Below, piece after piece: positions 2,960 to 16,438 of a stretch of DNA of 64,000 bases (position 1 is the first letter of the stretch; the number at the start of each line of letters is the position of its first letter). The notes under the pieces are model-generated. The model saw only the letters and a list, made by a program, of their open reading frames with translations. It had not been told where the DNA came from and made no database searches. This stretch comes from Shouchella clausii (GTDB taxonomy: Bacteria > Bacillota > Bacilli > Bacillales > Bacillaceae_D): the NCBI RefSeq assembly GCF_002250115.1, contig NZ_CP019985.1:3410001-3474000 (forward strand), written 5' to 3'. A program made the position numbers and the translations under genes.

Positions 2960-3008
2960 AATGGTTTAGAAAGGTTCCAGAAAGCTTAAAGCGTGGTAAC
3001 AAAAAAAC

Positions 3009-3393
3009 AGTTTAGCACACACAACCTGGAATTGTAAGTATCACATCGTGTTTGCCCCAAAATATAGAAGGATAGAAGGCAGGTCATTTATGGAAAATAC
3101 AAAAAGAGTATTGGACAAATCATTCATGTTAATTAGTATCCTACCCAAATTAAGTGTATCTCAATTCATGGGTTATCTAAATGGGAAAAGCAGCCTGATG
3201 ATATTTGTCGACATGCAAATTTGAAAGATCGTTATGGAAATCGGAAATTCTGGTGTCGAGGCTTCTACGTCGATACGGTGGGTAGAAATAAGAAAAAATA
3301 CAAAAATATATAAGAAATCAGCTAAAAGAAGACGGTATGGCCGATCAGTTAACGTTGTTCGAAGAAATCGACCCATTTACGGGGAAGAAATAA
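3009..3393 (+). pseudogene. tnpA: Decayed IS200/IS605-family TnpA transposase
   Basis: Conceptual translation restores an IS200-type Y1 transposase: HTTWNCKYHIVFAPKYRR, then SVSQFMGYLNGKSSLMIF, then RHANLKDRYGNRKFWCRGFY and VDTVGRNKK, ending IDPFTGKK before TAA at 3391-3393. It is broken in at least four ways. No start codon precedes SLAHTTW. The stretch between KYRR and the HUH motif is internally shortened. The HUH site itself reads KSF where HIH is expected. There are two 1-base losses, one at about 3204-3210 (GATCGA reduced to GTCGA) and one in the A-run at about 3291-3298. It is non-functional and marks old insertion activity next to the island. Confidence 0.85.
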
Positions 3394-3525
3394 TGAAATT
3401 CTTTAGAATTGGTGTGTGAATGTGGTGCGGAAGGGAAACCTTTTCAGTGAGCCTTTTAGGCCGAGGCCGGTAAGAGAGGCTTTCAGCCGCAGAGCAAACC
3501 ACCAGTTCACACTGGTGGATATTAT
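3009..3525 (+). mobile_element. IS200/IS605-family element remnant with right-end hairpin
   Basis: The tnpA remnant is followed by about 130 bases of structured DNA typical of the right end of such elements, closing with the perfect hairpin CCACCAGT / ACTGGTGG (3499-3506 and 3511-3518). No tnpB gene is present. The left end is not recognisable; the boundaries are approximate. Confidence 0.65.
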
Positions 3526-3550
3526 AGGTCTATTAAAGAATCAATTAACG

Positions 3551-3566
3551 ATGTAAACGGAAAAAG
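3551..3566 (+). promoter_or_regulatory. Weak cre-like site upstream of kdgD
   Basis: ATGTAAACGGAAAAAG matches the left half and the central CG of the CcpA cre consensus, but the right half has lost the CA. It lies about 30 bases upstream of a good -35. Carbon catabolite control is possible only; a stronger cre stands at 6336. Confidence 0.3.
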
Positions 3567-3597
3567 ATCCGAATTTGTCAGCTAATAAAATTGATAG

Positions 3598-3626
3598 TTG
3601 ACAGACAATTCTATATGTCTTACAAT
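3598..3626 (+). promoter_or_regulatory. Promoter of kdgD with operator-like motif over the -10
   Basis: TTGACA (3598-3603), 17 bases, TACAAT (3621-3626) is a near-consensus SigA promoter. The segment 3614-3626 (TATGTCTTACAAT) shares TGTNNTACAAT with the palindrome at 4693-4705, which overlaps the -10 of the next promoter in the same way. This suggests a common repressor. Confidence 0.75.
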
Positions 3627-3669
3627 TAAAATGTAAAATGATTTATTTGTTAAGAAAGGACGAGATAAA

Positions 3670-4590
3670 ATGGACAAGGAGAGGCAATCACCTACCGGTA
3701 TTTTAGGTTTTCCAGTGGCCCCAATGGATACCAACGGAAAATTGGATTTGAAAGGATTGGAAAAAAATATTCATTTTTTGATGGATGAAGGACTTTCTTC
3801 TATTTTCGTTGGATGTGGAGCAGGAGAATTTCATGCCATCAGTAATGAAGAATATAGGGAAATGGTTGAAGTTGCAGTGGCAGCGACAAAAGGCAAAGTT
3901 CCTCTTTATACAGGAGTAGGAGGCAATATTAGCCATGCGCTGGAACAAACTAAGATTTCAGAGGAGTTAGGGGCAGAAGGGTATTTAATTTTGCCTCCAT
4001 ACTTGATCGACCCTTCTCCTGAAGGCTTATATAACTATTTAAGTACACTGATTGCCAGTACATCCTTAAATGCAATTGTTTACCATCGCGATAACTGCCA
4101 ATTAAATTTGGACATCCTTCAGCGTTTAATCGATTACCCTCAGTTGGTCGGTTTTAAAGATGGAATTGGCAATAATGAATTAAATAATGAGCTTACCCAT
4201 GTTATTGGCGATCGGCTGGAATGGATCAACGGTATGCCGCTGGCAGAAGCGACAATGGCTTCCTATGTCAATCTTGGATTCCGGTCATATTCTTCAGCCA
4301 TTTCGAATTATATTCCTCATATTTCGCAAATTTTTTATGATGCCCTTTTAAATGAGAAAAAAGACGTGCTGAATGATGTCTATCAGGAAGTCATCCTGCC
4401 GATTCATCGGATTAGAAGACAAAAGAAAGGATATGCCGTTGCTTTGATCAAAGCTGGGATGGAGATCGTCGGTTTGCCTGTTGGAACGAGCGTTCGCCCT
4501 CCGGTTGCTTCTGTTGAAAAAGAACATTATCAACAGTTAGAGCAGATCATCAAAAAAGCGCTAGAAAAATTTCCTAAGGAAAGACGATAA
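3670..4590 (+). CDS. kdgD: 5-dehydro-4-deoxyglucarate dehydratase, DHDPS family
   Basis: Class I aldolase-fold enzyme expected to dehydrate and decarboxylate 5-keto-4-deoxyglucarate to alpha-ketoglutarate semialdehyde. The 306 residues follow the KdgD/YcbC pattern: GILGFPVAPMD near the start, Tyr138 in AIVYHRDN, Schiff-base Lys163 in VGFKDGIGN, NGMPLAEATM, YSSAISNYIPHIS and the C-terminal GYAVALIKAGMEIVGLP. ATG follows AGAAAGGAC. It opens the catabolic island, with RidA- and NicX-like genes downstream, and its product is the substrate of the dehydrogenase at 9295. Related family members act on 2-keto-3-deoxyarabinonate or on hydroxyproline-derived pyrroline, so the exact substrate is less sure than the family. 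Confidence 0.87.
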   Translation: MDKERQSPTGILGFPVAPMDTNGKLDLKGLEKNIHFLMDEGLSSIFVGCGAGEFHAISNEEYREMVEVAVAATKGKVPLYTGVGGNISHALEQTKISEELGAEGYLILPPYLIDPSPEGLYNYLSTLIASTSLNAIVYHRDNCQLNLDILQRLIDYPQLVGFKDGIGNNELNNELTHVIGDRLEWINGMPLAEATMASYVNLGFRSYSSAISNYIPHISQIFYDALLNEKKDVLNDVYQEVILPIHRIRRQKKGYAVALIKAGMEIVGLPVGTSVRPPVASVEKEHYQQLEQIIKKALEKFPKERR

Positions 4591-4676
4591 TGCAGACGTT
4601 ATAATGAAGTAACGATAGCTTTATAGTTTTTGAAATATTTTTTGGTGTTATTTTGTAATATTTTATTGAATTCATA

Positions 4677-4705
4677 TTGAAATATGATTTATATTGTAAT
4701 ACAAT
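4677..4705 (+). promoter_or_regulatory. Promoter of the RidA/NicX-like genes with palindromic operator
   Basis: TTGAAA (4677-4682), 17 bases, TACAAT (4700-4705). The palindrome ATTGTA-A-TACAAT (4693-4705) covers the -10. Its shape is that of operators bound by FadR/FCD-type GntR regulators, which is family knowledge; no such regulator is encoded in the window. Confidence 0.75.
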
Positions 4706-4745
4706 TTGAAACACTCAATATTTTTCGAAGGAAGGAGATGCGTAT

Positions 4746-5204
4746 ATGAATTTTGAGGGAAAATTAGAGAGAGCAGGATATAAGCTTCCTGATCGAAGGA
4801 AGGGCAACCAACGCCCATTTGAGGATGGCATTCAAACCAGCCAATTAATTTTTGTATCCGGAAACGCTGCCAAGATAGATGGCGTTTTGAAGTACAAAGG
4901 AATTGTGGGTGATACAGTTTCTTTGGAGCAGGCCCAGGACGCAGCCAAAATTGCCTTCGTAAATTGCTTGGCAGCCGTAAAATATATGACGGGAAGCCTG
5001 GATCACATAAAAAAAATTGTCAATATAAAAGGTTATGTAGCAAGTACACCTGATTTTATTGAGCAACCGGAAATAATGAATGAAGTATCTTTTTTGGTAA
5101 ATGAAATATTTGGTGAGGCTGGAAAGCACAGCAGAGCCGCCTTGGGAACTGCATCTCTTCCTGGAGGAACCCCTGTCGAAGTTGAAATTGTTGTTGAAGT
5201 GTAA
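4746..5204 (+). CDS. RidA (YjgF/YER057c/UK114) family protein
   Basis: Small trimeric-fold protein of 152 residues. Family members hydrolyse reactive enamine/imine intermediates, or act as dedicated deaminases in catabolic clusters. The C-terminal signature HSRAALGTASLPGGTPVEVE carries the carboxylate-binding Arg130 and the following VEVE strand. An N-terminal extension and the stretch FVNCLAAVKYMTGSLDHIKKIV place it in the roughly 150-residue subgroup rather than in housekeeping RidA (about 125). GGAAGGAGATG precedes ATG 4746. It is followed 50 bases later by the NicX-like gene, so the two probably work on the same nitrogenous intermediate. Confidence 0.9.
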   Translation: MNFEGKLERAGYKLPDRRKGNQRPFEDGIQTSQLIFVSGNAAKIDGVLKYKGIVGDTVSLEQAQDAAKIAFVNCLAAVKYMTGSLDHIKKIVNIKGYVASTPDFIEQPEIMNEVSFLVNEIFGEAGKHSRAALGTASLPGGTPVEVEIVVEV

Positions 5205-5254
5205 ATTAAAGTGAATAGCTTTTCAAAACAAATGAAAAAAGGGGAGAAATAAAT

Positions 5255-6229
5255 ATGATCGAGTTTTCAAAAGATATGCCGTTAGGGATTAAACAACTAT
5301 TTACCAGTGTTACCCATTTAAAAGAAGGGGAAAAAGTATTAGTGATTACGGATGATCATAAAAGAGAGATCGGGGAGTTCGTTTATAAGTATGCAAAGGA
5401 ATATTTTGATACAACGATGATTGTAATGACGCCAAGAGAAGGGCATGGTGCAGAACCGACCGAAGCCGTCAGAGCGGCATTAAATGCTTGCGATGTGGCC
5501 TTTGGCGCAACGACGATGTCGATGTATCATTCAAAAGCACGGTTGGAAACGAGCAGAAACGGCCGGCTCCGTTGGGTAGGACTTCAAGATTATGCACTTC
5601 ATATGTTTGATGAAGGCGGTTTAACAGCTGATTTTGACGAAGTGAGGGAGGTCATTGACCGGGTTTCTCAATACTACCAAGGGACAACATTTACATTAAC
5701 TGCTCCTGGCGGTACGAATATGGTTTGCAGTATAGAAGGACGAAAGCCTGTTTTCGACTATGGAACATCTAGAGAACCGGGATCTGCTTCTTTTCCGCCT
5801 AATGCAGAAGTGGCGCTTGGACCTGTCGAAGGGACTGCCAATGGCGTATTGGTATTTGACGGAAGCATTCCTCATCCGTTGCTAAATTTACTTGATGAGC
5901 CAGTTACATGCAAAGTTGAAGGCGGTTACATTACGGAAATTACAGGCGGGGGCGAGGCAGACATTTTACGCAAGCTTTTGGCCGACTTTAACGATTCTTC
6001 GGTTTATAATATCGCGGAACTTGGCCTTGGATTAAATAAAGAAAATTATTTGTGCGGTCATATGGCGCCGGATGAAGGTTCATTTGGAAATATCCATATT
6101 GGAATAGGAAAAAATTTAAACTTCGGAGGACATGTGGATTCTCCGCTGCACTTGGACTTGGTCATTAAGGATGTCACCATTGTCATTGACGATCGCACGA
6201 TCATGAAAGATGGCGTTTTGAAGGTGTAA
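5255..6229 (+). CDS. M29-aminopeptidase/NicX-like metalloenzyme
   Basis: 324 residues of the M29 aminopeptidase fold family, which also includes NicX, the Fe(II) 2,5-dihydroxypyridine 5,6-dioxygenase of nicotinate degradation. The signature AEVALGPVEGTANGVLVFDGS is at about 190-210. Candidate metal ligands near the C-terminus are His281 (GNIHIG), His293/Asp295 and His299/Asp301 (HLD). In NicX a His plus an H-x-D pair bind iron. It could be a ring-cleaving dioxygenase, an amide hydrolase or a peptidase; the sequence alone does not decide. The neighbouring RidA and the sugar-acid enzymes argue for small-molecule catabolism over peptide turnover. The start is ATG with AAAGGGGAG upstream. Confidence 0.75.
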   Translation: MIEFSKDMPLGIKQLFTSVTHLKEGEKVLVITDDHKREIGEFVYKYAKEYFDTTMIVMTPREGHGAEPTEAVRAALNACDVAFGATTMSMYHSKARLETSRNGRLRWVGLQDYALHMFDEGGLTADFDEVREVIDRVSQYYQGTTFTLTAPGGTNMVCSIEGRKPVFDYGTSREPGSASFPPNAEVALGPVEGTANGVLVFDGSIPHPLLNLLDEPVTCKVEGGYITEITGGGEADILRKLLADFNDSSVYNIAELGLGLNKENYLCGHMAPDEGSFGNIHIGIGKNLNFGGHVDSPLHLDLVIKDVTIVIDDRTIMKDGVLKV

Positions 6230-6243
6230 TTTGCATCCTAAAC

Positions 6244-6307
6244 GTTCCCTTCCTTTGGAACAGTATTGTCCGAAGAGGCTTGGTCAGGGAGGGGATTCCC
6301 CCTCCTT
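6244..6307 (+). terminator. Tandem hairpins between the NicX-like gene and dctP
   Basis: GTTCC (6244-6248) pairs with GGAAC (6257-6261). Then a 9-bp stem AGGGAGGGG (6286-6294) / CCCCTCCTT (6299-6307) closes on an ATTC loop. There is no T-run, so termination may be partial; it may instead serve as an mRNA-stabilising or processing element separating two operons. Confidence 0.5.
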
Positions 6308-6335
6308 AAAGTTAATGAACATGAAGCTGTTTTTG

Positions 6336-6351
6336 TTGTAAGCGTTTGCAA
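6336..6351 (+). promoter_or_regulatory. cre site for CcpA upstream of the TRAP transporter
   Basis: TTGTAAGCGTTTGCAA matches 15 of 16 positions of the cre consensus WTGNAARCGNWWWCAW. It lies 56 bases before the dctP start. Repression of substrate uptake in the presence of preferred sugars is the expected effect. I see no convincing SigA core promoter in the adjoining bases; TTGACA at 6373 has no -10 at proper spacing. Confidence 0.7.
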
Positions 6352-6406
6352 AATGGTTCGCCATTAAAAGTTTTGACAATACGATTTCATTATACAAGGT
6401 GATTAA

Positions 6407-7423
6407 ATGAAAAAGATGAATAATATTACGTCCGTAATGATAAGTATTGCCTTGGTATTCGTGTTAATTGGATGTTCTGCTTCGGCAAATGCCAATTTAG
6501 AACAGAAAAAGGTTATCAGCATAGCGACCGTACAGCCTGATAACCATTCAATAACGATCGCCCTAAACGCATTTAAAGATTACATTGAAGAAAAACTTGG
6601 GGATAAATTTGAAATTAGGATCTTTTCCAACAGTATAATGGGCGGAAATACGGAAGCAATTGAATTGCTGCAGATGGGCAGTCTCGATATTGTTGCGACT
6701 AGTGGAAGCAATTTGGAATCCTTTGCCAATGAATATAAGATTTTCGGTTTTCCGTATTTGTTTAATGATGAAGCAAGCTTTCGCAAAGTGATGAATAATG
6801 AGGAGTTTATAATGGAAATTTACAACGCTACTGCTGATAACGGAATTCAGGGAGTAGCCTGGTTTGCCAATGGTGTAAACAACTTTTATTCTTCTAAAAG
6901 AATTGAAACTCCCAAAGATTTAAAAGGGTTAAAGGTTCGCGTACAATCCAGTGAGGCAAATGTAAAGATGGTACAAGCTTTTGATGCTGCAGCAGTTGTC
7001 ATGGCTCATGGTGAAGTATATACCGCATTGCAAAATGGCGTGATTGATGCGGGTGCAAACCCAGAGATGGCACTGGTAAGCTTGAAGCATGGTGAGGTCG
7101 CCAATTTTTATTCCCGGACGGAACATCAGATTTTTACAGACATGCTCATGGCCAATACGAAATTTCTGGATTCTCTTACGGCTGAAGAAAAAGAAATTTT
7201 TGAATACGGCTTTAAAATGACCACACAAGTTCAAAATGAAGAATGGGATAAACAGATTCCGGAAGTAATAGAAGAGGCAGAGAAGATGGGAGTAGAGTTT
7301 GTGACCGTCGACAAAAAGTCATTTAAAGAAGTGTTAAAACCAGTAAATGAAGAATTGTTGAATAAGTATCCGGAATTAAAGCTGCTGTATGACAAGGTTC
7401 AGGAGATTCAGAACGATACGTAG
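6407..7423 (+). CDS. dctP: TRAP transporter solute-binding lipoprotein, DctP family
   Basis: Extracytoplasmic receptor that captures a carboxylate ligand for the membrane subunits DctQ and DctM. The N-terminus is a lipoprotein signal peptide: basic MKKMNN, hydrophobic core, lipobox LIGC with Cys23. The mature part has the DctP pattern: FSNSIMGGNTEAIELLQMGSLDI, FGFPYLFNDEASFRKV and GLKVRVQSSEAN, where the Arg of KVRV is the family's ligand-carboxylate contact. 338 residues. AAGGTGA lies 4 bases before ATG, a short spacing. The ligand cannot be read from the sequence; a sugar acid or related organic acid is inferred from the neighbours. Confidence 0.92.
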   Translation: MKKMNNITSVMISIALVFVLIGCSASANANLEQKKVISIATVQPDNHSITIALNAFKDYIEEKLGDKFEIRIFSNSIMGGNTEAIELLQMGSLDIVATSGSNLESFANEYKIFGFPYLFNDEASFRKVMNNEEFIMEIYNATADNGIQGVAWFANGVNNFYSSKRIETPKDLKGLKVRVQSSEANVKMVQAFDAAAVVMAHGEVYTALQNGVIDAGANPEMALVSLKHGEVANFYSRTEHQIFTDMLMANTKFLDSLTAEEKEIFEYGFKMTTQVQNEEWDKQIPEVIEEAEKMGVEFVTVDKKSFKEVLKPVNEELLNKYPELKLLYDKVQEIQNDT

Positions 7424-7435
7424 GGAGTAGATGAG

Positions 7436-7930
7436 ATGAGAAAAATAAAAAGCATACTGGATAAAGTGCTTTCCGCTGTGTGCGCCGCACTATTGGCCTT
7501 TATGACGCTACTCACTATATACCAGGTTGTGATGAGGTATGTATTTCACAGTCCGAGCACGATGTCTGAAGATATATTGAGTTACTCATTTGTTTGGGTA
7601 TCATTGCTTGGTACAGCATTGGTTTTTGGCCAAAAAGATCATATGAAATTGTCTTTTTTTTGCGACAAGGTAAAAGGAAAAGGCCAGTTAGTATTATCCA
7701 TCTTTTCCGAGCTGTTAATATTGGCTGTAGCCATTACCGTCTTTCTAGTTGGAGGAAAAGCGGTAATGGGGGTCGGTGTATTGCAGACATCTCCTACCCT
7801 AGGTATTCACATGGATTGGATTTATATCATTCTTCCTATAAGCGGTGTATTGATCATCGTCTATAGTTTTATCCATATTATCCAATCGATACAGGAATTT
7901 AACATGGACGGAAAAGGGGAGTTGCAATGA
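7436..7930 (+). CDS. dctQ: TRAP transporter small membrane subunit, DctQ family
   Basis: 164-residue protein with four predicted hydrophobic segments (about 12-32, 45-65, 85-108 and 127-150) and the conserved early stretch IYQVVMRYVFHSPSTMSEDILSYSFVW. This subunit bridges the binding protein and the DctM channel in Na+-driven TRAP uptake. It starts 12 bases after dctP and its stop overlaps the start of dctM (ATGA at 7927), so the two are translationally coupled. Confidence 0.92.
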   Translation: MRKIKSILDKVLSAVCAALLAFMTLLTIYQVVMRYVFHSPSTMSEDILSYSFVWVSLLGTALVFGQKDHMKLSFFCDKVKGKGQLVLSIFSELLILAVAITVFLVGGKAVMGVGVLQTSPTLGIHMDWIYIILPISGVLIIVYSFIHIIQSIQEFNMDGKGELQ

Positions 7931-9234
7931 GTATAGCATTGTCGGCAGGCTTAATATTGTTTGTTACCATTGTCATTTTATTGTTACTCGGTATTCCGAT
8001 CGGAATTTCGCTTATGGTTGCGGGAATTTTGGCCATTACCCAGTCATTGGGCTTTTCAGCAGCCATTCCGGCATCGGCATTAAAGATGTTTCAAGGTATT
8101 AACATCTTTACTTTATTGGCGATTCCTTTCTTTGTTCTGGCAGGCAATATTATGAGTAAAGGCGGGATAGCCGTCCGCTTGATTCATTTTGCAACTGCCT
8201 TGACCGGCAGGATACCAGGCTCCCTTGCCCATACGAATGTTGTGGCCAACATGCTCTTTGGGTCCGTCTCCGGTTCCGGCACAGCTGCTGCATCAGCAAT
8301 GGGAACGATCATTGGTCCGATCCAAAAAAAAGAAGGCTACAATGAGGATTTTTCAGCTGCACTAAATGTTGCTACAGCGCCTACAGGCCTGTTGATTCCA
8401 CCGAGTACGGCTTTGATTACGTATGCTTTGGCAAGCGGGAGCACTTCTGTTGCGGCCCTTTTCCTTGGCGGAGTGATCCCAGGGATTTTATGGGGATTAA
8501 GCTGTATGCTTGTCGTCTACTTTTATGCGAAAAAGAATGGGTATGTTGCTAAAAGAGCTATAAGCGCCAAGGAATTTTTTAGGGTGACCTTTGACGCCCT
8601 ACCGAGTTTGCTGTTGATTGTGATTGTAATCGGCGGGATTGTAAGCGGTATTTTCACAGCTACGGAAGCATCGGCAATGGCAGTTGCCTATAGTTTACTT
8701 TTATCGATGTTCCTTTATAAAACAATCACAATAAAAGAGTTATACACTATTCTGATTGACAGTGCCAAGTTGTCGGCTATTATCATGTTTTTAATTGGTG
8801 CATCCAACATTTTGGCATGGGTGATGTCATTTACTGAAATTCCAACCTTGATTGCGGATACCATATTGGGCATTTCAGATAATCCGATTATTATTCTATT
8901 GGTGATCAATTTACTGTTGTTGTTTGTGGGCACATTTATGGATTTGACTCCTGCCATTTTAATTTTCACACCGATTTTGCTTCCTGTATGCCAAGCGTTG
9001 GGGATGACTCCGTTGCATTTTGGCATTATGCTGACATTTAATTTGAGTATCGGGACCATTACTCCTCCAGTAGGCAATATTTTGTTTGTTGGGATAAAAG
9101 TGGCCCAAAGGAAGCTGGAAAATGTGATGCCGCACCTCTTTCGGTTTTATGCCGCCATTTTCGTTATTCTTATGTTGATCACATATGTTTCATGGTTTTC
9201 AACATTCTTGCCAAAGCTGGCCGGCTACTTTTAA
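7927..9234 (+). CDS. dctM: TRAP transporter large permease, DctM family
   Basis: 435-residue polytopic protein of the ion-transporter superfamily that forms the translocation path of the TRAP system. Family blocks visible are LLGIPIGISLMVAG, NIFTLLAIPFFVLAGNIMSKGGIA, GSVSGSGTAAASAMGTI, the re-entrant PTGLLIPPSTALITYALASG and FGIMLTFNLSIGTITPPVG. It overlaps dctQ by 4 bases with GGGGAGTTG upstream. With dctP and dctQ it makes a complete three-part high-affinity uptake system, the only transporter of the island. Confidence 0.95.
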   Translation: MSIALSAGLILFVTIVILLLLGIPIGISLMVAGILAITQSLGFSAAIPASALKMFQGINIFTLLAIPFFVLAGNIMSKGGIAVRLIHFATALTGRIPGSLAHTNVVANMLFGSVSGSGTAAASAMGTIIGPIQKKEGYNEDFSAALNVATAPTGLLIPPSTALITYALASGSTSVAALFLGGVIPGILWGLSCMLVVYFYAKKNGYVAKRAISAKEFFRVTFDALPSLLLIVIVIGGIVSGIFTATEASAMAVAYSLLLSMFLYKTITIKELYTILIDSAKLSAIIMFLIGASNILAWVMSFTEIPTLIADTILGISDNPIIILLVINLLLLFVGTFMDLTPAILIFTPILLPVCQALGMTPLHFGIMLTFNLSIGTITPPVGNILFVGIKVAQRKLENVMPHLFRFYAAIFVILMLITYVSWFSTFLPKLAGYF

Positions 9235-9294
9235 TAACATGAACGTATAATTGATTAATTTTTAATTTTGAAATTTAAAAAGGAGAAGATAAAC

Positions 9295-10761
9295 ATGAGT
9301 TCTTTCGATCGTATAAACAACACTTACTTCAACTATATAAATGGAGAGTGGATAGCATCTGAAAGCAATATAACAGAGGCAAGCACGAATCCCGCCAAAA
9401 TGGATGAGGTGGTGGGCTATTTTCAAAAATCGACGCAGGGAGATTTAAATAAAGCTGTGTCCTCAGCAAAACAAGCACAGCAGCAGTGGAAAAAACTGAC
9501 CGGAAATGTACGCGGCGATTTCTTATTGAAAACCGCATCCATACTGGAAAGCAGGGTAGATGAAGTTGCCGAAACTATGACGAAAGAGATGGGAAAGACT
9601 TTTCCTGAAGCAAAAGGTGAAACATTAAGAGGCGTAGCGATTTTACGCTATTACGCAGGAGAAGGTTTACGCTCTGTCGGAGATGTCATTCCCTCTACTG
9701 ACAGTGAAGCATTAATGTTTACAACGAGGGCGCCATTAGGCGTTGTCGGGGTCATCACTCCCTGGAATTTTCCGGTAGCCATTCCCATTTGGAAAATGGC
9801 GCCTGCGCTCATCTATGGAAATACGGTGGTGATTAAGCCAGCAAGTGAAACGGCTGTCACCTGTGCTAAGATCATCGACTGCTTTGCCGCAGCAGGTATG
9901 CCGGCAGGAACAGTTAATATGGTAACCGGTTCCGGATCGGTTATTGGACAAGGGCTGGCAGAGCACCCTGATGTAAACGGCATTACTTTTACAGGATCCA
10001 ATACGGTGGGAAAAAAAATCGGCCAGGCCGCACTGGCTAGAGGAGCCAAATATCAGCTTGAAATGGGGGGCAAAAATCCGGTCATTGTGGCGGAAGATGC
10101 TGATCTTGATTTAGCTGTGGAGGCGACCATTAGCGGGGGGCTGCGTTCCACCGGCCAAAAATGTACCGCAACAAGCAGGGTGATCATCCAAAGCAAAGTA
10201 TATGAAGTATTTAAAGAAAAGCTTCTTGCAAAAGTGAAGGAAATAACAGTAGGAGATGGCATGCAGGAAGGTATCTGGATGGGTCCATGTGCAAATAAAA
10301 ATCAGCTGGATACAGTTCTTTCATATATAGAAAAAGGAAAGCTAGAAGGGGCGGCTTTATTATATGGAGGCAACCGGCTTCAAGATGGAAATACAGGCAG
10401 CGGTTATTTTGTTGAACCCACGGTATTTGAAAATGTGAATACAAATATGGTGATTGCACAAGAAGAAATCTTCGGGCCGGTTTTGGTGTTAATGAAAGTA
10501 GAGAGCATTGAAGAGGCGCTTTCTCTCGCCAATGATGTTGAATATGGATTAAGTGCTTCCATCTTTACAACTAATATCAGCAACATGCTTTCTTTTATCA
10601 ATGAAATGGATGCAGGGTTAGTGCGGATTAATGCGGAAAGCGCGGGGGTAGAACTTCAGGCTCCTTTTGGCGGAATGAAGCAATCAAGCTCCCATTCCCG
10701 CGAGCAAGGAAGAGCGGCAATCGAATTTTATACATCTATTAAAACCGTGTTCGTCAAATAA
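9295..10761 (+). CDS. Alpha-ketoglutarate semialdehyde dehydrogenase-like aldehyde dehydrogenase
   Basis: 488-residue NAD(P)-dependent aldehyde dehydrogenase. Catalytic residues are visible: Asn158 in TPWNFP, Glu256 in LEMGGKNP and Cys290 in GQKCTATSR. The C-terminal [16 protein letters not shown] is typical of the KGSADH/YcbD branch. With the KdgD-type dehydratase at 3670 it would complete the last two steps of glucarate-type degradation, giving 2-oxoglutarate. The start ATG 9295 is chosen because AAAAAGGAG sits 9 bases upstream; an in-frame TTG at 9268 precedes that site. Close relatives include succinate semialdehyde dehydrogenases, so the aldehyde is inferred from context. Confidence 0.88.
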
Positions 10762-10861
10762 GCAGTATTGTTTTACGCTTTCATAGAAGACAGCAACGCT
10801 GTTGTTGATCTCTAAAATATGTGCTTTTGGGACTATGATGATTTTTGAGCAAGTATGAACC

Positions 10862-10989
10862 ATAAAAGAGCTAGTAAACTTGGGCAATAAAGCTTTCCAG
10901 GAAGCCAATTAACGATGTTCAAATCTGTTGGGCAAGCCATTTTTGACATCCTTACGGCAAAGTTAATTTATGAAAAATTACAAGGTTGA
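10862..10989 (+). pseudogene. C-terminal remnant of an ornithine-cyclodeaminase-like gene
   Basis: The 25 codons from 10915 read MFKSVGQAIFDILTAKLIYE plus KLQG and a stop. This is the hallmark C-terminal helix of the ornithine cyclodeaminase / mu-crystallin / ketimine reductase family (usual form: FKSVGxAxxDxxxAxxxYE). In front of it, one base out of frame, is LVNLGNKAFQEAN (10870-10908), as if one T were lost at about 10909. The rest of the gene is gone. It suggests that the island once held an imine-reducing or deaminating enzyme between the dehydrogenase and the aldolase. Confidence 0.6.
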
Positions 10990-11045
10990 ATAACATAGAG
11001 AACGGCGTGGACCATTTCACTTGAATCATGTTGGGGGGATGAGCA

Positions 11046-11813
11046 ATGAGTAAACTAAAAGAAGCACTCGATCATCATCAAATTGCTTATGGTATTTTTT
11101 CAGCATTAAAAGATCCGGCAATTATAGAAATTTTGGGGTACGCCGGTTATGATTTTGCCGTCATTGATTTAGAACATTCTACCGTGGATTTATCAACAAT
11201 GGAGCATATGATTAGAGCTGCGCAAGTTGTCAACATCACATCCATAGTCAGAACGCCTCAGGAAGATTACGGTACTATTTTGAGGGCTGTCGAGGCAGGT
11301 GCTGATGCAGTTATGGTACCGCACTTAACTTCGAAAAAACAAGCTGAAAAAATAGTCTCAATGGCAAAGTATCAACCAATCGGGCAGCGAGGACTAGATG
11401 CGTCAACAAGAGTAGCGCAATTCGGTGGGATCAATGTGAATCTCGAAGATCATATGCGAAAACAAAACGAGCGGCTGCTCATTATTGGGATGATTGAAGA
11501 TGCGGAGGCCGTCTTGAATATTGAGGACATTGTCACTGCAAAAGGCTTAGATTTACTATTTATTGGTCCATCCGATTTATCGGCATCGTTTGGGTATCCG
11601 GGACAAGTTACACATCCAGTTGTCCGTAAAGCGATTCAAAAGGTGATTGATAAAGCGAATAAAGCGGGCGTAAAGGTGGGGATTCCGGCTTTTAAACCCA
11701 ATCAAGTAAAAGAAGTCATCGATATGGGGGTTAGCTATCTGACAACCCCTGCTGTAGAGGCCTCGTTTTTAACGCAAAGTTTAAAAATTCATCTCGAATC
11801 TGTCAAAAGATGA
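11046..11813 (+). CDS. HpcH/HpaI-family aldolase
   Basis: 255-residue class II pyruvate-type aldolase of the HpcH/HpaI/GarL family, which cleaves 2-keto-3-deoxy acids or 4-hydroxy-2-oxo diacids to pyruvate plus an aldehyde. Motifs: His44 in IDLEHSTVD, Arg69 in IVRTP, metal ligands Glu151 in GMIEDAEAV and Asp177 in IGPSDLSASFG, and VGIPA near the end. A strong GGGGGGATGAG precedes ATG. It starts a second group of genes after the cyclodeaminase remnant. It could cleave 2-keto-3-deoxyglucarate (GarL-type) or an unrelated 2-oxo acid; I cannot tell which. Confidence 0.88.
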   Translation: MSKLKEALDHHQIAYGIFSALKDPAIIEILGYAGYDFAVIDLEHSTVDLSTMEHMIRAAQVVNITSIVRTPQEDYGTILRAVEAGADAVMVPHLTSKKQAEKIVSMAKYQPIGQRGLDASTRVAQFGGINVNLEDHMRKQNERLLIIGMIEDAEAVLNIEDIVTAKGLDLLFIGPSDLSASFGYPGQVTHPVVRKAIQKVIDKANKAGVKVGIPAFKPNQVKEVIDMGVSYLTTPAVEASFLTQSLKIHLESVKR

Positions 11814-11847
11814 TGATGCAGACAAATCATAACAAGGAGTTGTTCGC

Positions 11848-12045
11848 GTGATGGATGTAAAGCAGAGATTGCTCATGTTATTTGAACACAATAAGATAGA
11901 CATCCAGTATTTTGATTTACACGCTTTTTCCAAAGAGGCAACTGTTTTTATAAAAAAAATTCAAGATGTTAAAAAGAATAACCCACAACTGAAACATGAA
12001 CCGATATTTTCACTTCAGCAACTGAGAGGGGAATCTGACAGATGA
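11848..12045 (+). CDS. AtzG/GatC-sized partner protein of the amidase (inferred)
   Basis: 65-residue acidic-basic helical protein. AAGGAG lies 8 bases before GTG 11848 (ATG 11851 is the alternative). It overlaps the following amidase by the ATGA at 12042-12045, so the two are translationally coupled. I do not recognise its sequence. Size, predicted helices and position match AtzG, the small subunit that stabilises the AtzE amidase, and GatC next to GatA. On that basis alone I infer an accessory subunit of the amidase. LLMLFEHNKIDIQYFDLHAF and DVKKNNPQLKHEPIFSLQQL are the distinctive stretches. Confidence 0.6.
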   Translation: MMDVKQRLLMLFEHNKIDIQYFDLHAFSKEATVFIKKIQDVKKNNPQLKHEPIFSLQQLRGESDR

Positions 12046-13487
12046 GCCGATTTAATTTCTTGGAATGGAATATCGAACAGCTAAGTAAAAGCATGAAAGA
12101 AAAAGAAATTTCTCCAGTTGAAGTGTTAGAGGCAAGCCTTGATTTAATCTCAGCGCAAAACAAAGAGTTGAATGCGTTCGTTACTGTAATGGAAGAAGAC
12201 TCAATAAAAGCTGCTAAACAGGCTGAAGAGGAAATAATGATGGGTACTGATAAAGGACCGCTTCATGGCGTTCCAATTGGGTTAAAAGATTTAATTTGTA
12301 CAACGGGTATTAAAACGACTTTTGGCTCTGAAGTTTATAAAGATTACGTCCCTCATTTTGATGCAGAGGTAGTTACGAACTTAAAGGATGCTGGGGCCAT
12401 TATGATCGGCAAATTGAATATGCATGCATTTGCATATGGGACAACGGGTGACCGATCGTTTTTCGGGCCAGTGAAAAACCCGCATAACCCGAAAAAAATA
12501 ACGGGAGGATCGAGTTCCGGATCCGGTGCGGCGGTAGCTTCCTACCAATGTTATGGTTCAGTCGGATCGGATACTGGGGGATCGATTCGAATGCCTGCCT
12601 CCATGTGCGGGATTGTCGGGATGAAACCGACTTTTGGCAGAGTGAGCAGGTATGGCGCCATCCAATTGTGCCCCACTTTAGACCATTTAGGGCCTATGAC
12701 CCGAACTGTTACGGATAACGCACTTCTATTAAACGTCTTATCCGGTTTTGACGAGAAAGATCGTTATTCGGTTGCTTCAAAAAAAGAAAATTTTACTGAA
12801 GGGATTAATGCAAGTATTAAAGGTAAAAAAATCGGCATTCCAACTTCTTTTTATTTTGACATCATCGACACGGAAGTTCAACGTGTGTTTAACTCAGCGG
12901 TTGAAAATTGCCGCCTGCTTGGTGCCGAAATAGTCCCGATTGAACTTCCTGGTATGGATGATCTTTTGACAGCACAGCAAGTTATTTTGGCTGCAGAGGC
13001 ATATACGTCATTGGAGAGACATTTAAGCAATACACCTGAACAGGTTGAAGAAGAAGTGAGATCACGAGCGATTGCTGGGATGCTTATTCAAGCGAGTGAG
13101 TATATTCAAATGTTACAAATAAAACATAAAGCAGTTGAAATGCATAACAAAGCTTTTGAACAAGTAGACGTTATTTTGACGCCAACCTTACCAATGGTAC
13201 CAACTAATATTGATCAGAGAATGACAGATTCTTATGGATTACAGGAACATGTCCGAATTTTCGCGCGTTTAACTGGTCCAAGTAATACGACTGGGCTGCC
13301 AGCTATTTCTGTTCCAGGAGGGATGTCACAATGTGGATTGCCGATTGGCGTACAATTTATTGGAAAAGCCTTTGCTGAAAAAGAGCTTTATCGGTTTGCT
13401 TATGCGCTAGAACAAACAGGAGCGTACCGTTCATCTCTATCTTCAAACAGACTTGGTAAGTCCACATTAGAAGAAGCAGTAGAATAG
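12042..13487 (+). CDS. Amidase-signature family amidohydrolase
   Basis: 481-residue serine hydrolase with the complete Ser-cisSer-Lys triad: Lys82 in HGVPIGLKDL, Ser157 in GGSSSGSG and nucleophile Ser181 in GSDTGGSIRMPA. The spacing (75 and 24 residues) is that of GatA. It resembles GatA and AtzE rather than fatty-acid amide hydrolases. The downstream FARLTGPSNTTGLPAISVPGG is typical. It follows the 65-residue protein with a 4-base overlap and precedes the NHL protein. It is not a likely tRNA amidotransferase because gatB is absent. Hydrolysis of an amide, carbamoyl or ureido group of the island's substrate is inferred. Confidence 0.92.
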   Translation: MSRFNFLEWNIEQLSKSMKEKEISPVEVLEASLDLISAQNKELNAFVTVMEEDSIKAAKQAEEEIMMGTDKGPLHGVPIGLKDLICTTGIKTTFGSEVYKDYVPHFDAEVVTNLKDAGAIMIGKLNMHAFAYGTTGDRSFFGPVKNPHNPKKITGGSSSGSGAAVASYQCYGSVGSDTGGSIRMPASMCGIVGMKPTFGRVSRYGAIQLCPTLDHLGPMTRTVTDNALLLNVLSGFDEKDRYSVASKKENFTEGINASIKGKKIGIPTSFYFDIIDTEVQRVFNSAVENCRLLGAEIVPIELPGMDDLLTAQQVILAAEAYTSLERHLSNTPEQVEEEVRSRAIAGMLIQASEYIQMLQIKHKAVEMHNKAFEQVDVILTPTLPMVPTNIDQRMTDSYGLQEHVRIFARLTGPSNTTGLPAISVPGGMSQCGLPIGVQFIGKAFAEKELYRFAYALEQTGAYRSSLSSNRLGKSTLEEAVE

Positions 13488-13550
13488 TGGGTTAACTTAC
13501 TTTCTTCAAAATTTTCCTTAACGATGATTGCTTTATGGAGGTGGAGAATG

Positions 13551-14384
13551 ATGGAAGTTTTTAGTCTCGGTCATCATCAATATCGGGTAAAAAGGGATTG
13601 GATAAAACTACCTCAAAATAAACCCTTAAATCATATTTCGGGAGTCTCTACTGATAATGACGGACATATCTACGTATTGCAACGCAGTAATCCTTTTATG
13701 CTCATTTTTTCTAACGATGGGGAACTTCTCGATGAGTGGTATGATGAGACACTCTCAGACGGCCACTATTTTAGGTTAACAAACGATGGCAGAGTATGCG
13801 TTGTTGACCGCAATCATCACAGGATCGTCATATTTAACCGTTCGGGCCAGATTCTCCAAGTAATTGGTGATCAGCAAAATCCCGGTCGCTTGGGTATTCC
13901 CTTTAATCATCCTACAGATGTATCTGTAACGGATCAAGGTAATTTCTTTGTTTCAGATGGTTATGGAAACTTTTCTGTTCATCATTTAGATTCGAATGGT
14001 GAATTGATCAATACTTGGGGAAAACCCGGGAAAGGCAAAGGTGAATTTACAGTTCCTCACTCGGTTTTGGTAGATCAGCGTGATCGTGTCTTAGTGGTTG
14101 ATCGGGAAAATAATCGGGTCCAGATTTTTAATCAAAGCGGAACTTATCTGGGTGAAATCAATCACCTTTATCGCCCGATGAATATTTATGAAGATAAGGA
14201 CGGTTTCCTTTATGTAACGGATCAGACACCAACAGTCAAACTATTTCATTCAAACGGGGAACTTTTAGGACGGTTCCTTACTTTAGGTACGATCGGGCAT
14301 GGCGTGACTGTTGACGAAAATGGCGATGTCTATATCGCTGAGATGTTTCATGATGAGATTATTAAATTTATCCGCTTATCTTAA
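13551..14384 (+). CDS. NHL-repeat beta-propeller protein, possible amidoglycolate-lyase-like enzyme
   Basis: 277 residues composed almost wholly of NHL/six-bladed propeller repeats, for example GVSTDNDGHIYVLQRSNPFM, DGRVCVVDRNHHRIVIFN, GNFFVSDGYGNFSVHHL, DRVLVVDRENNRVQIFN, GFLYVTDQTPTVKLFH and GDVYIAEMFHDEIIKF. No signal peptide is visible, so it is cytoplasmic. Similar soluble propellers include the peptidyl-alpha-hydroxyglycine amidating lyase fold, and annotation as such is common but untested. GGAGGTGG with 6-base spacing supports ATG 13551; an in-frame ATG at 13524 precedes this site. As last gene of the island operon it may act on the amide chemistry of the amidase, but that is a guess. 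Confidence 0.8.
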   Translation: MEVFSLGHHQYRVKRDWIKLPQNKPLNHISGVSTDNDGHIYVLQRSNPFMLIFSNDGELLDEWYDETLSDGHYFRLTNDGRVCVVDRNHHRIVIFNRSGQILQVIGDQQNPGRLGIPFNHPTDVSVTDQGNFFVSDGYGNFSVHHLDSNGELINTWGKPGKGKGEFTVPHSVLVDQRDRVLVVDRENNRVQIFNQSGTYLGEINHLYRPMNIYEDKDGFLYVTDQTPTVKLFHSNGELLGRFLTLGTIGHGVTVDENGDVYIAEMFHDEIIKFIRLS

Positions 14385-14398
14385 GTATTGAAAAAATT

Positions 14399-14441
14399 GA
14401 AAGCCAGCGTGTGACGGTCGTTGCCGGGTACGCTGGCTTTC
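14399..14441 (+). terminator. Terminator at the right edge of the island
   Basis: GAAAGCCAGCGT (14399-14410) pairs perfectly with ACGCTGGCTTTC (14430-14441) and is followed by the T-rich ATTTAATTTCTT. It separates the catabolic genes from the housekeeping lepB region. Confidence 0.8.
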
Positions 14442-14605
14442 ATTTAATTTCTTGGCTGGTTTTGTCCCGGCCTCTTTGATTGGGCACAAAAGAGGGTCAC
14501 AAGAAAAATGGCCTCTTGAAAAGATCGACTACGGCCCTGTCCAGGCGTTACCAAGGCAACAGTCAGGCTTTACAAATAAAGGAGTATCAAAGCGAGGCTG
14601 GTTGG

Positions 14606-14797
14606 TCAACGAGTCAGCGGAAAGCTGACGACAACATAGAAAGCAAATAGGATAATGCCAAAACTGGAAAAAAACACAATCTTGGCAGGTTTAGGCCAAT
14701 TTTTTAGCCACCCCCATCTCTTACTGTCTTGGTCTAGCCACAAGAAATCGGCAATGACAAACACAAAAATAAGAACGAGTGCCAATGTCGGATTCAT
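14606..14797 (-). CDS. Small two-helix membrane protein, unknown function
   Basis: 63 residues from ATG (complement of 14795-14797) to TGA (14606-14608). AAGGGGTGG stands 5 bases before the start on the - strand. The predicted topology is two hydrophobic helices (LALVLIFVFVIADFLWL and IVFFSSFGIILFAFYVVVSF) joined by the basic, Trp-rich loop DSKRWGWLKNWPKPAK. I do not recognise the family. It is one of only two plausible - strand genes in the window and sits in the gap between the island terminator and lepB. Confidence 0.6.
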   Translation of the reverse strand: MNPTLALVLIFVFVIADFLWLDQDSKRWGWLKNWPKPAKIVFFSSFGIILFAFYVVVSFPLTR

Positions 14798-14979
14798 ACT
14801 GACCACCCCTTTTTTTATGTTGTTTTCATCCTATCATATTTGGGATTAAATGGGTTGTCATTTTGCTGCTTTTAGAAAGTTTAGTGGTCGTGTATGTTGG
14901 GCAGAATTTTGCAGAACCGCCAAGTGACTACGTGCTTCTTTTTATGGTAAACTAAAGAGAAAAAGAGGAGGCATCCCAG

Positions 14980-15534
14980 GTGGCATTTCGCGGATTTCCA
15001 ATTGAGTGGGCCAAAGCCATTTGCATCGCGTTATGCGCCACAATGCTCGTACGCCTTTTTTTGTACGCGCCCATTGTTGTAGACGGCCATTCGATGCAGC
15101 CAACGCTCGACTCTGGGGACAAAATGATCGTCAACCAAATTGGGTATGTTTTTATTGAGCCAAAACGTTTTGATATTGTTGTTTTCCACGCACCTGGCGG
15201 GAAAGATTATATTAAACGGATCATTGGCCTCCCTGGCGACCATTTGAAATATGAAAACGATACGCTTTATATTAACGGGGAAGAAACAGCGGAACCTTAT
15301 TTAAACTCGCTGAAACAGACGCTTTACGGCGACCAATTGCTTACTGGCGATTTTACACTGGAAGAGTTAATCGGCGAAGAGGTAATCCCTGACGATCATT
15401 ATTTTATGATGGGCGATAATCGCCGTTTAAGTAAAGACAGCCGTGATATTGGTCTCATTCCGAAATCAGAAATTATCGGCAAAGCGAACGTCATTTTTTA
15501 TCCGTTTGAACATATAAGCATTGTTAACGATTAA
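14980..15534 (+). CDS. lepB: Type I signal peptidase
   Basis: 184-residue single-span membrane protease of the SipS/SipT type that removes signal peptides on the outer face of the membrane. An N-terminal anchor (about 11-30) precedes catalytic Ser38 in GHSMQPTL and general-base Lys79 in [12 protein letters not shown]; the box [14 protein letters not shown] closes the site. It starts at GTG with AGAGGAGG 8 bases upstream. A possible promoter is GTGACT (14924-14929), 18 bases, TAAACT (14948-14953). rbgA follows 34 bases later. Confidence 0.96.
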
Positions 15535-15568
15535 TGGGCTTCCTTTGCCCACAAAGCAGGTGAAATGG

Positions 15569-16438
15569 TTGAAAACGATTCAATGGTACCCTGGCCATAT
15601 GGCCAAGGCGCGCCGAGAAATAAAAGAAAAATTAAAACTGATCGATGTTGTGATTGAACTTGTCGATGCTCGCATTCCCCAGTCTTCCCGCAATCCACTC
15701 ATTGATGAATTGGCGCAACAAAAGCCGAGACTGATGCTGTTAAATAAGGCTGATTTAGCTGACCCAGCGGAAACAGAACAGTGGCGCGCTTTTTTTAAAC
15801 GGACTGGAGCTGAAGTCCTGGCAATCAATGCGCAAACAGGAGGAGGCGTTAAAAACATTGCTCCTGCCTGCAAAATGCTAGCAAGCGCCCTTTATCAAAA
15901 ATGGGAACAAAAAGGGATGAAGCCGCGCCCGCTGCGAGCGATCATTCTTGGTATCCCCAATGTCGGCAAATCGACGCTCATTAACCGCCTTGTTAATAAA
16001 CGGCAGGCGAAAGTCGGAGATCGCCCTGGGGTGACCAAGCAACAGCAATGGATCAAAGTCAAGCAGGAACTTGAACTTCTAGACACACCGGGGATTTTAT
16101 GGCCTAAATTTGATGACCAAGAAGTCGGATTACGCCTTGCTGCAACAGGTGCAATTAAAGATGAATTGCTAGACTACGGCGACGTGGCTGCCTATGCGCT
16201 TCGCTACTTAGCAGCTGAGTACCCAGATTTGCTCCAAGCACGCTATGGCATCGAACGAAGCAGCGAAGAGGACGATGACATCGTCCCTTTGTTTGAAGCG
16301 ATCGGAAAAAAACGGGGTTGCATCGTTCGTGGAGGCCTTGTCGATTTTGATAAAACAGCTGAATTGATCTTGCGCGAGCTGCGTAGCGGCACAATTGGAA
16401 AAGTGACGCTGGAAAAGGCGGAATACGAAGCGTTGTAG
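15569..16438 (+). CDS. rbgA: Ribosome-biogenesis GTPase RbgA (YlqF)
   Basis: Circularly permuted GTPase needed for late 50S assembly, especially the joining of L16 and neighbours. Motifs run in the permuted order G4 (LLNKADL), G1 (GIPNVGKST), G3 (LLDTPGI), after the N-terminal [14 protein letters not shown] that carries the catalytic-His region. The 289-residue product from TTG 15569 fits the family length (AGGTGA 5 bases upstream). The frame is open to 15521, but the extra residues lack a counterpart. As in Bacillus it sits shortly before rnhB. Confidence 0.93.

Follow-up and report, generated by a model that had tools for sequence, protein, structure and literature searches.

How can a gene set that ends in the enzymes of hexarate breakdown be supplied when the usual entry enzyme is missing? 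This question is raised by an inserted segment in the chromosome of Shouchella clausii (contig NZ_CP019985.1), which interrupts the rplS–lepB interval of a 64,000-nucleotide window (the whole stretch of DNA analysed here, positions 3,410,001 to 3,474,000). The original prediction, made from the sequence of the window, had listed a set of catabolic genes next to a broken insertion sequence (IS), and profile matches together with an IS200-type remnant bear out that every one of them exists; they fall, however, into two modules and not one. The subject of this report is the first of these, module A (kdgD–rid–NicX/M29-like–dctPQM–aldh with a remnant of an OCD-family gene, 3670–10995). On comparison of the sequences, we lean towards reading module A as a nitrogen-removing feeder into the hexarate pathway, ending at 2-oxoglutarate.

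Gene content of module A

The segment and the genes of module A are as follows.

2960–14472, no strand assigned: whole inserted segment (island), absent from sister genome G399
3670–4590, + strand: kdgD, 5-dehydro-4-deoxyglucarate dehydratase (TIGR03249, 414.8 bits; cut-off, 373.95)
4746–5204, + strand: Rid-family protein, proposed imine/enamine deaminase (PF14588, 62 bits; PF01042, 36 bits)
5255–6229, + strand: NicX/M29-fold metalloenzyme, proposed hydrolase
6407–7423, + strand: dctP, solute-binding protein of a tripartite ATP-independent periplasmic (TRAP) transporter (PF03480, 234 bits; nearest solved structure, 4n91, 6e-77)
7436–7930, + strand: dctQ, TRAP small permease (PF04290, 106 bits)
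7927–9234, + strand: dctM, TRAP large permease (TIGR00786, 422 bits)
9295–10761, + strand: aldh, alpha-ketoglutaric semialdehyde dehydrogenase (KGSADH) (NF042993, 903 bits; cut-off, 770)
10906–10995, + strand: C-terminal remnant of an OCD-family gene (70% over 30 residues, E 3e-7, to the OCD of Sporosarcina locus L091)

All frames of the module are open except that of the OCD gene, for which the predicted cyclodeaminase-like remnant was recovered. The aldh open reading frame (ORF) opens with TTG at 9268, and its likely start is the ATG at 9295, preceded by a ribosome-binding-like aaggag. KdgD and KGSADH together convert 5-keto-4-deoxyglucarate to 2-oxoglutarate, and the absence of the usual glucarate or galactarate dehydratase, also part of the prediction, extends to the whole genome, in which neither GudD nor GarD is found above cut-off.

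Conservation of module A in other genomes

Scanning of genome contigs with one peptide pattern, by which orthologues lacking the pattern would be missed, gave 538 candidates, and the best 80 comprised 13 orthologues of the NicX/M29-like protein (61–85% identity) and 67 weaker relatives (34–45%), the next relatives being at most 42% identical apart from one partial match at 45%. The rid–nicX–dctPQM block is kept in 11 of the 13 orthologue loci, its carriers being Psychrobacillus, Sporosarcina, Halalkalibacter, and clostridial genomes, and kdgD and aldh adjoin the block in seven, each time with a GntR-type regulator (the single one scanned contains an FCD domain). Three of these seven loci also have an OCD gene. 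The gene set thus recurs elsewhere when its co-occurrence is checked, and neither GudD nor GarD exceeds its cut-off in the seven genomes that have kdgD and aldh next to the block. Genes at the loci were clustered at 40% identity over half length, with window gene names assigned above 45%; in the GC-rich locus L100, longest-ORF picking had misplaced some genes, which were re-read.

The distribution is patchy. Among 397 order-level and 398 phylum-level genomes (own genome in both), no NicX-like relative above 42% was found apart from the own one, and in the order only the own genome has a gene above 37%. Four genus genomes within the order-level search gave no NicX-like match at E 1e-20; for 12 other genus genomes, whose candidates were only partly scored (e.g. 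23 of 52), the listed matches included none to the stretch of rid or of the NicX-like gene. In a plasmid search with the NicX-like protein, all 145 records were below 60% identity, the 20 listed being at 24–34%. No rid was matched near the 67 weaker relatives with tblastn at E 1e-6, many of these loci being cut short. Module A looks, from its presence in the lineages named above, unlike a one-strain accident, and its gene set is conserved and apparently undescribed: no title or abstract describing it was among the matches listed in open-licence PubMed Central.

The NicX/M29-like enzyme

The protein matches the overall fold of both NicX (2,5-dihydroxypyridine 5,6-dioxygenase) and the M29 aminopeptidases, a fold common to an amide-bond hydrolase family; such a structural match would not by itself specify which metal is bound. 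The Fe ligands His265, Ser302, His318, and Asp320 of NicX correspond to Glu255, Gly283, His299, and Asp301, two of the four being replaced, and the substrate residue His189 to Phe. Orthologues at 61–78% identity are found in Clostridium and Lachnospiraceae, lineages known as anaerobes. Because of the two replaced ligands and the clostridial orthologues, a dioxygenase is unlikely on these comparisons.

The enzyme also differs from M29 aminopeptidases (AmpT, AmpS, and PepS), being ~90 residues shorter and scoring below the Pfam gathering score (PF02073, 16.1 against 27 bits). The five metal ligands of M29 enzymes are Glu, Glu, His, His, and Asp. Glu185 and His299/Asp301 align with PepS by weak local matches, and Glu255 and His281, placed by pattern and not by superposed coordinates, are invariant; the Tyr of the M29 ligand site is not conserved. 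The alignment used (A2) comprises 34 sequences, the window protein together with 11 of the 13 orthologues and with 22 of the weaker relatives.

A second NicX/M29-like gene of the host (L214, 692000–708000 of the genome; 8701–9675 therein) is 28% identical to that of the window and scores above the Pfam M29 threshold (40.9 against 27 bits). It adjoins an S-Me-THD-like (DUF917-type) protein, a presumably AroM-like protein, and a membrane protein, and this neighborhood is likely another catabolic cluster, judging from its gene content.

Rid protein and the TRAP binding protein

All 12 module Rids have the Arg of the HSR motif, equivalent to the catalytic Arg105 of RidA, its position having been matched by eye to the Escherichia coli motif. 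The nearest solved structures of the window Rid are 3d01 and PA0814. According to PMC5619798, Rid proteins with the Arg105 equivalent hydrolyse imines, and PA0814 and ACIAD3089, which among relatives with a name are nearest to the module Rid, appear there and in PMC4433059 as tested imine deaminases of subfamily Rid1. The module Rid is, like these two, a Rid-family protein by sequence and has the Arg linked to imine hydrolysis; unlike them, it sits in a catabolic operon. Further nitrogen enzymes are OCD, in the linked loci and as the window remnant, and an aminotransferase in the Lachnospiraceae nicX loci.

For DctP, the closest solved structures are 4n91 (Apre_1383) and 4mhf (Bpro_3107), both described as uronate binders in passages of PMC7660916. 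In the numbering of STM3169, the alignment shows Arg170 and Asn210 to be kept in the module DctPs, as in the two uronate binders, whereas the position of Arg150 is occupied by Asn in 12 of 12, so that the full uronate-TRAP ligand set (Arg150, Arg170, and Asn210) is not found in any. Since the carboxylate-binding Arg and Asn are kept and the second Arg is changed to Asn, the ligand should be, on sequence grounds, uronate-like yet not a uronate.

Operator-like sites and drains

Two operator-like sites lie ahead of kdgD and rid in the window.

3615–3625, no strand assigned: operator-like ATGTCTTACAA upstream of kdgD, one mismatch to TTGTCTTACAA
4694–4704, no strand assigned: palindromic operator-like TTGTAATACAA upstream of rid, fitting TTGTNNNACAA; four such sites in the 64-kb window

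In all seven GntR-linked loci, the exact TTGTCTTACAA lies ahead of the leading gene and, where the kdgD and rid blocks stand apart (L092 and L094), ahead of both blocks; it was found in none of the six loci without that GntR. It also precedes three other KdgD genes (L209, L057, and L183), which are the host's second one (L209), that of genus genome G398, and that of the Halalkalibacter oceani gudD–garD cluster. The window yielded no GntR resembling the regulator that accompanies the operons of the relatives; the host's own GntR adjoining its second KdgD is 51–53% identical to that regulator.

In a tree of matches longer than 200 residues, the window KdgD forms a clade (support, 99/97) with the KdgDs of the seven linked modules, outside which fall the host's second KdgD and that of the H. 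oceani glucarate cluster. Each of the seven genomes in which kdgD is linked has the module KdgD as its sole KdgD above cut-off. Module A is thus like the glucarate/galactarate pathway in its KdgD and KGSADH above curated cut-offs, in the GntR-FCD regulator beside the block in seven of 13 loci, and in its operator; it is unlike it in that rid, the NicX/M29-like gene, and TRAP stand where GudD or GarD would be, in the seven linked genomes and the own one.

GarL, GarR, and glycerate kinase form the other known drain of the same keto-deoxy-hexarate. In the two Lachnospiraceae, the nicX orthologue is paired with glycerate kinase, whose frame overlaps nicX by 4 bases (L101, 427.6 bits; cut-off, 168.45). 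Both contigs also carry, farther from nicX, tartronate-semialdehyde reductase GarR (411–415 bits; cut-off, 340.75) and, as the aldolase, a GarL-like protein (L206, 218 bits; L207, tblastn match of 32%). These contigs resemble the E. coli-type drain in GarR and glycerate kinase, and depart from it in the aldolase scoring below the GarL cut-off and in the NicX/M29-like input enzyme. Both drains suit 5-keto-4-deoxyglucarate as the shared intermediate. This compound is probably the product of the module A input, because of the KdgD/KGSADH context, the shared operator, and the GarL-type alternative drain.

Two further KdgD clusters were observed. That of the host (L209, 836000–852000 of the genome) consists of GntR, KdgD, and ALDH with a TctA-type transporter and a TTGTCTTACAA site, with no GudD match genome-wide. 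In H. oceani (L213, 10214–17350), GntR, a lactate-racemase-like protein, KdgD, Ldh_2, and a transporter that we take to be Tct-like stand in a row, without a recognised hexarate dehydratase in that stretch.

Proposed pathway

In the favored pathway, TRAP would import a uronate-like acid whose nitrogen belongs to an amide, a lactam, or an amino group, and the NicX/M29-fold protein, acting as a metal hydrolase and not a dioxygenase as its fold, ligands, and clostridial carriers suggest, would open that bond. Rid, as its family and conserved Arg indicate, would then turn the resulting enamine or imine into a 2-keto acid and ammonia, with an OCD-family enzyme, decayed in the window, participating in some strains. 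From the genomic context, the keto acid would be 5-keto-4-deoxyglucarate or an epimer, to be converted by KdgD and then KGSADH to 2-oxoglutarate; in the two Lachnospiraceae, its further breakdown would fall to the GarL-like aldolase, tartronate-semialdehyde reductase, and glycerate kinase. The neatest chemistry would be amide or lactam hydrolysis to a 2-amino-enoate, from which Rid yields the 2-keto-3-deoxy-hexarate.

Only tentatively do we propose that the substrate is a hydroxylated cyclic amino acid, a lactam, or an amino-hexarate, with the NicX/M29-fold protein as a ring-opening or acyl hydrolase and Rid as an obligate partner, releasing 5-keto-4-deoxyglucarate and ammonia from one input into two drains, in Bacilli and in Lachnospiraceae. 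Polyhydroxylated oxopipecolate, glucaro-delta-lactam, and N-acyl amino-hexarate, names derived from chemistry, may serve as examples; no paper on amino-hexarate or lactam substrates was found in the open-licence part of PubMed Central.

Several observations weigh against the role proposed for module A. At the loci, kdgD does not adjoin the module in six of 13, OCD is limited to the three linked loci and the window remnant, and no rid was found within 10 kb on either side of nicX in both Lachnospiraceae. The window lacks a GntR gene and carries operator variants only, not the exact TTGTCTTACAA, and the own genome shows no enrichment of the looser pattern WTTGTNNTACAAW (23 matches against 16 for the reversed control), specificity being confined to the exact form. 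As for the dehydratases, three of the seven linked genomes have GarD-superfamily proteins below cut-off (192–290 bits), G796, G801, G803, G805, and G808 give weak matches (19–33 bits), and other enolase-superfamily hexarate dehydratases may be present in the seven. G802–G804, three of the genomes in which kdgD lies apart from the module, combine a GarD above cut-off with GudD-like proteins (709–737 bits), and in these three the downstream route therefore cannot be assigned to the module. Finally, the GarL-like aldolase of L206 falls short of the GarL cut-off of 406.75 bits, and GarR is above cut-off also in four KdgD genomes (G798, G801, G805, and G808) and is therefore no clean marker.

Module B and the borders of the island

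Downstream of module A, a separate unit, module B (hpcH–small ORF–amidase, 11046–13487), is followed by a propeller gene, and the IS remnant lies near the left border.

11046–11813, + strand: HpcH/HpaI-family aldolase (PF03328, 126 bits; a 67% identical gene stands beside an amidase in G211)
11848–12045, + strand: small ORF preceding the amidase, resembling AtzG only in its size and position (65 residues, no Pfam match)
12042–13487, + strand: amidase signature enzyme (PF01425, 414 bits; ~60% to the G211 amidase)
13524–14384, + strand: NHL-repeat propeller (PF01436, 84 bits; last 39 residues at 95% in sister G403)
3006–3520 (about), + strand: broken IS200-type transposase remnant, matched at 69–87% by several copies in the own genome

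The amidase lies below the cut-offs of AtzE (TIGR02715, 323 against 425.75 bits) and GatA. The hpcH–small ORF–amidase set recurs in G211, the only other genome among the 397 with hpcH at E 1e-60, where the small ORF weakly matches a 64-residue ORF (41% over 27 residues, E 0.002) and the module A genes are absent from the ~23 kb read. In G211 (L217/L218), the neighbors of the set are an amidohydrolase-like protein, an RraA-like aldolase/decarboxylase, a GntR, and what its sequence suggests is an MFS-like carrier; module B thus looks like a separate catabolic pathway.

The sister-genome alignments define the insertion. G399 (L055) aligns to 1000–2959 and 14473–15994 with overlapping subject ends and zero bases between; the G402 alignment halts at 2958 and restarts at 14556, with ~145 bases of its own between; and the G403 alignment jumps from 3020 to 14266, keeping the final 39 codons of the propeller followed by ~1.4 kb of its own sequence. 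The GC content per 1-kb window is 37–46% in the island and 44–50% in the flanks. We regard the island as foreign DNA. ARAGORN found no tRNA gene in the window, and a search for repeats inside the island gave nothing useful. One own-genome IS copy (L219) has an open frame of 162 residues, which we take, from its sequence, to be an IS200-type TnpA.

The otherwise empty site of G403 (L054, 1061–1500) still holds the 3′ end of the propeller gene. By sequence, this suggests that the propeller or the entire island was formerly present in G403 and later deleted; the present data tie the propeller to neither module.

Alternative explanations

The alternative that survives best, although we think it unlikely, is that a plain hexarate or lactone (perhaps idarate, altrarate, or mannarate) is imported and converted to 5-keto-4-deoxyglucarate by the NicX-like protein acting as a dehydratase or lactonase, with Rid scavenging stray imines. 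In its favor are the absence of GudD and GarD above cut-off in all seven genomes where kdgD is linked to the module, the operator shared with other KdgD clusters including gudD–garD of H. oceani, and the uronate-binding relatives of DctP. Nevertheless, rid adjoins nicX in 11 of 13 loci, closer than a scavenger would require; OCD and, in Lachnospiraceae, an aminotransferase are nearby; the NicX-like fold is that of an amide-bond hydrolase family; and G802–G804 and G808 retain GarD/GudD-type proteins alongside the module.

It is improbable that TRAP brings in glucuronate, galacturonate, or an unsaturated uronate that the module oxidises or rearranges to 5-keto-4-deoxyglucarate with no nitrogen step. 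The closest solved DctPs are indeed uronate binders, but their second ligand Arg is Asn in all 12 module proteins, and no uronate dehydrogenase or KduI-type gene is among the module genes of the window.

A little less probable again is the single pathway originally proposed, in which module A, the HpcH aldolase, and the amidase act on one substrate. The two sets are indeed adjacent within a single insertion, but close homologues of hpcH, the small ORF, the amidase, or the propeller are missing from the surroundings of the 13 nicX orthologues, the exceptions being a weak hpcH match (27%) in L100 and GarL-like aldolases (~32%) along two Lachnospiraceae contigs, and module B recurs alone in G211, a genome without any NicX-like match at E 1e-20. 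What stands of that proposal is a nitrogenous acid taken up by TRAP, opened by the NicX-like enzyme, and ending as 2-oxoglutarate, which is our best reading of module A; the amidase, HpcH, small ORF, and propeller are not supported as its steps.

Genuine dioxygenase activity of the NicX-like protein, cleaving the ring of a hydroxypyridine carboxylate, is very improbable in view of the replaced Fe ligands and His189 and of the orthologues in Clostridium and Lachnospiraceae. Least credible, to the point of being negligible, is a strain-specific chance assembly of neighbors through the IS element: the gene is patchy in the order and none was seen in the 12 genus genomes partly scored, but the same block occurs in Psychrobacillus, Sporosarcina, Halalkalibacter, and clostridial genomes, and the seven linked loci with common operators contradict a one-strain coincidence for module A.

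Implications

The novel part of module A, read as a nitrogen-removing feeder, is probably a new input to the known hexarate pathway, the KdgD/KGSADH drain being already known. If this reading is true, part of the NicX/M29-like family, often called "aminopeptidase" in plasmid records, would gain a catabolic role, a Rid protein would gain a role in a pathway instead of in repair, and hexarate metabolism in Bacilli and clostridia would have a nitrogenous entry. The co-conservation of DctP, the nicX-like gene, and kdgD makes the substrate findable by a ligand screen.

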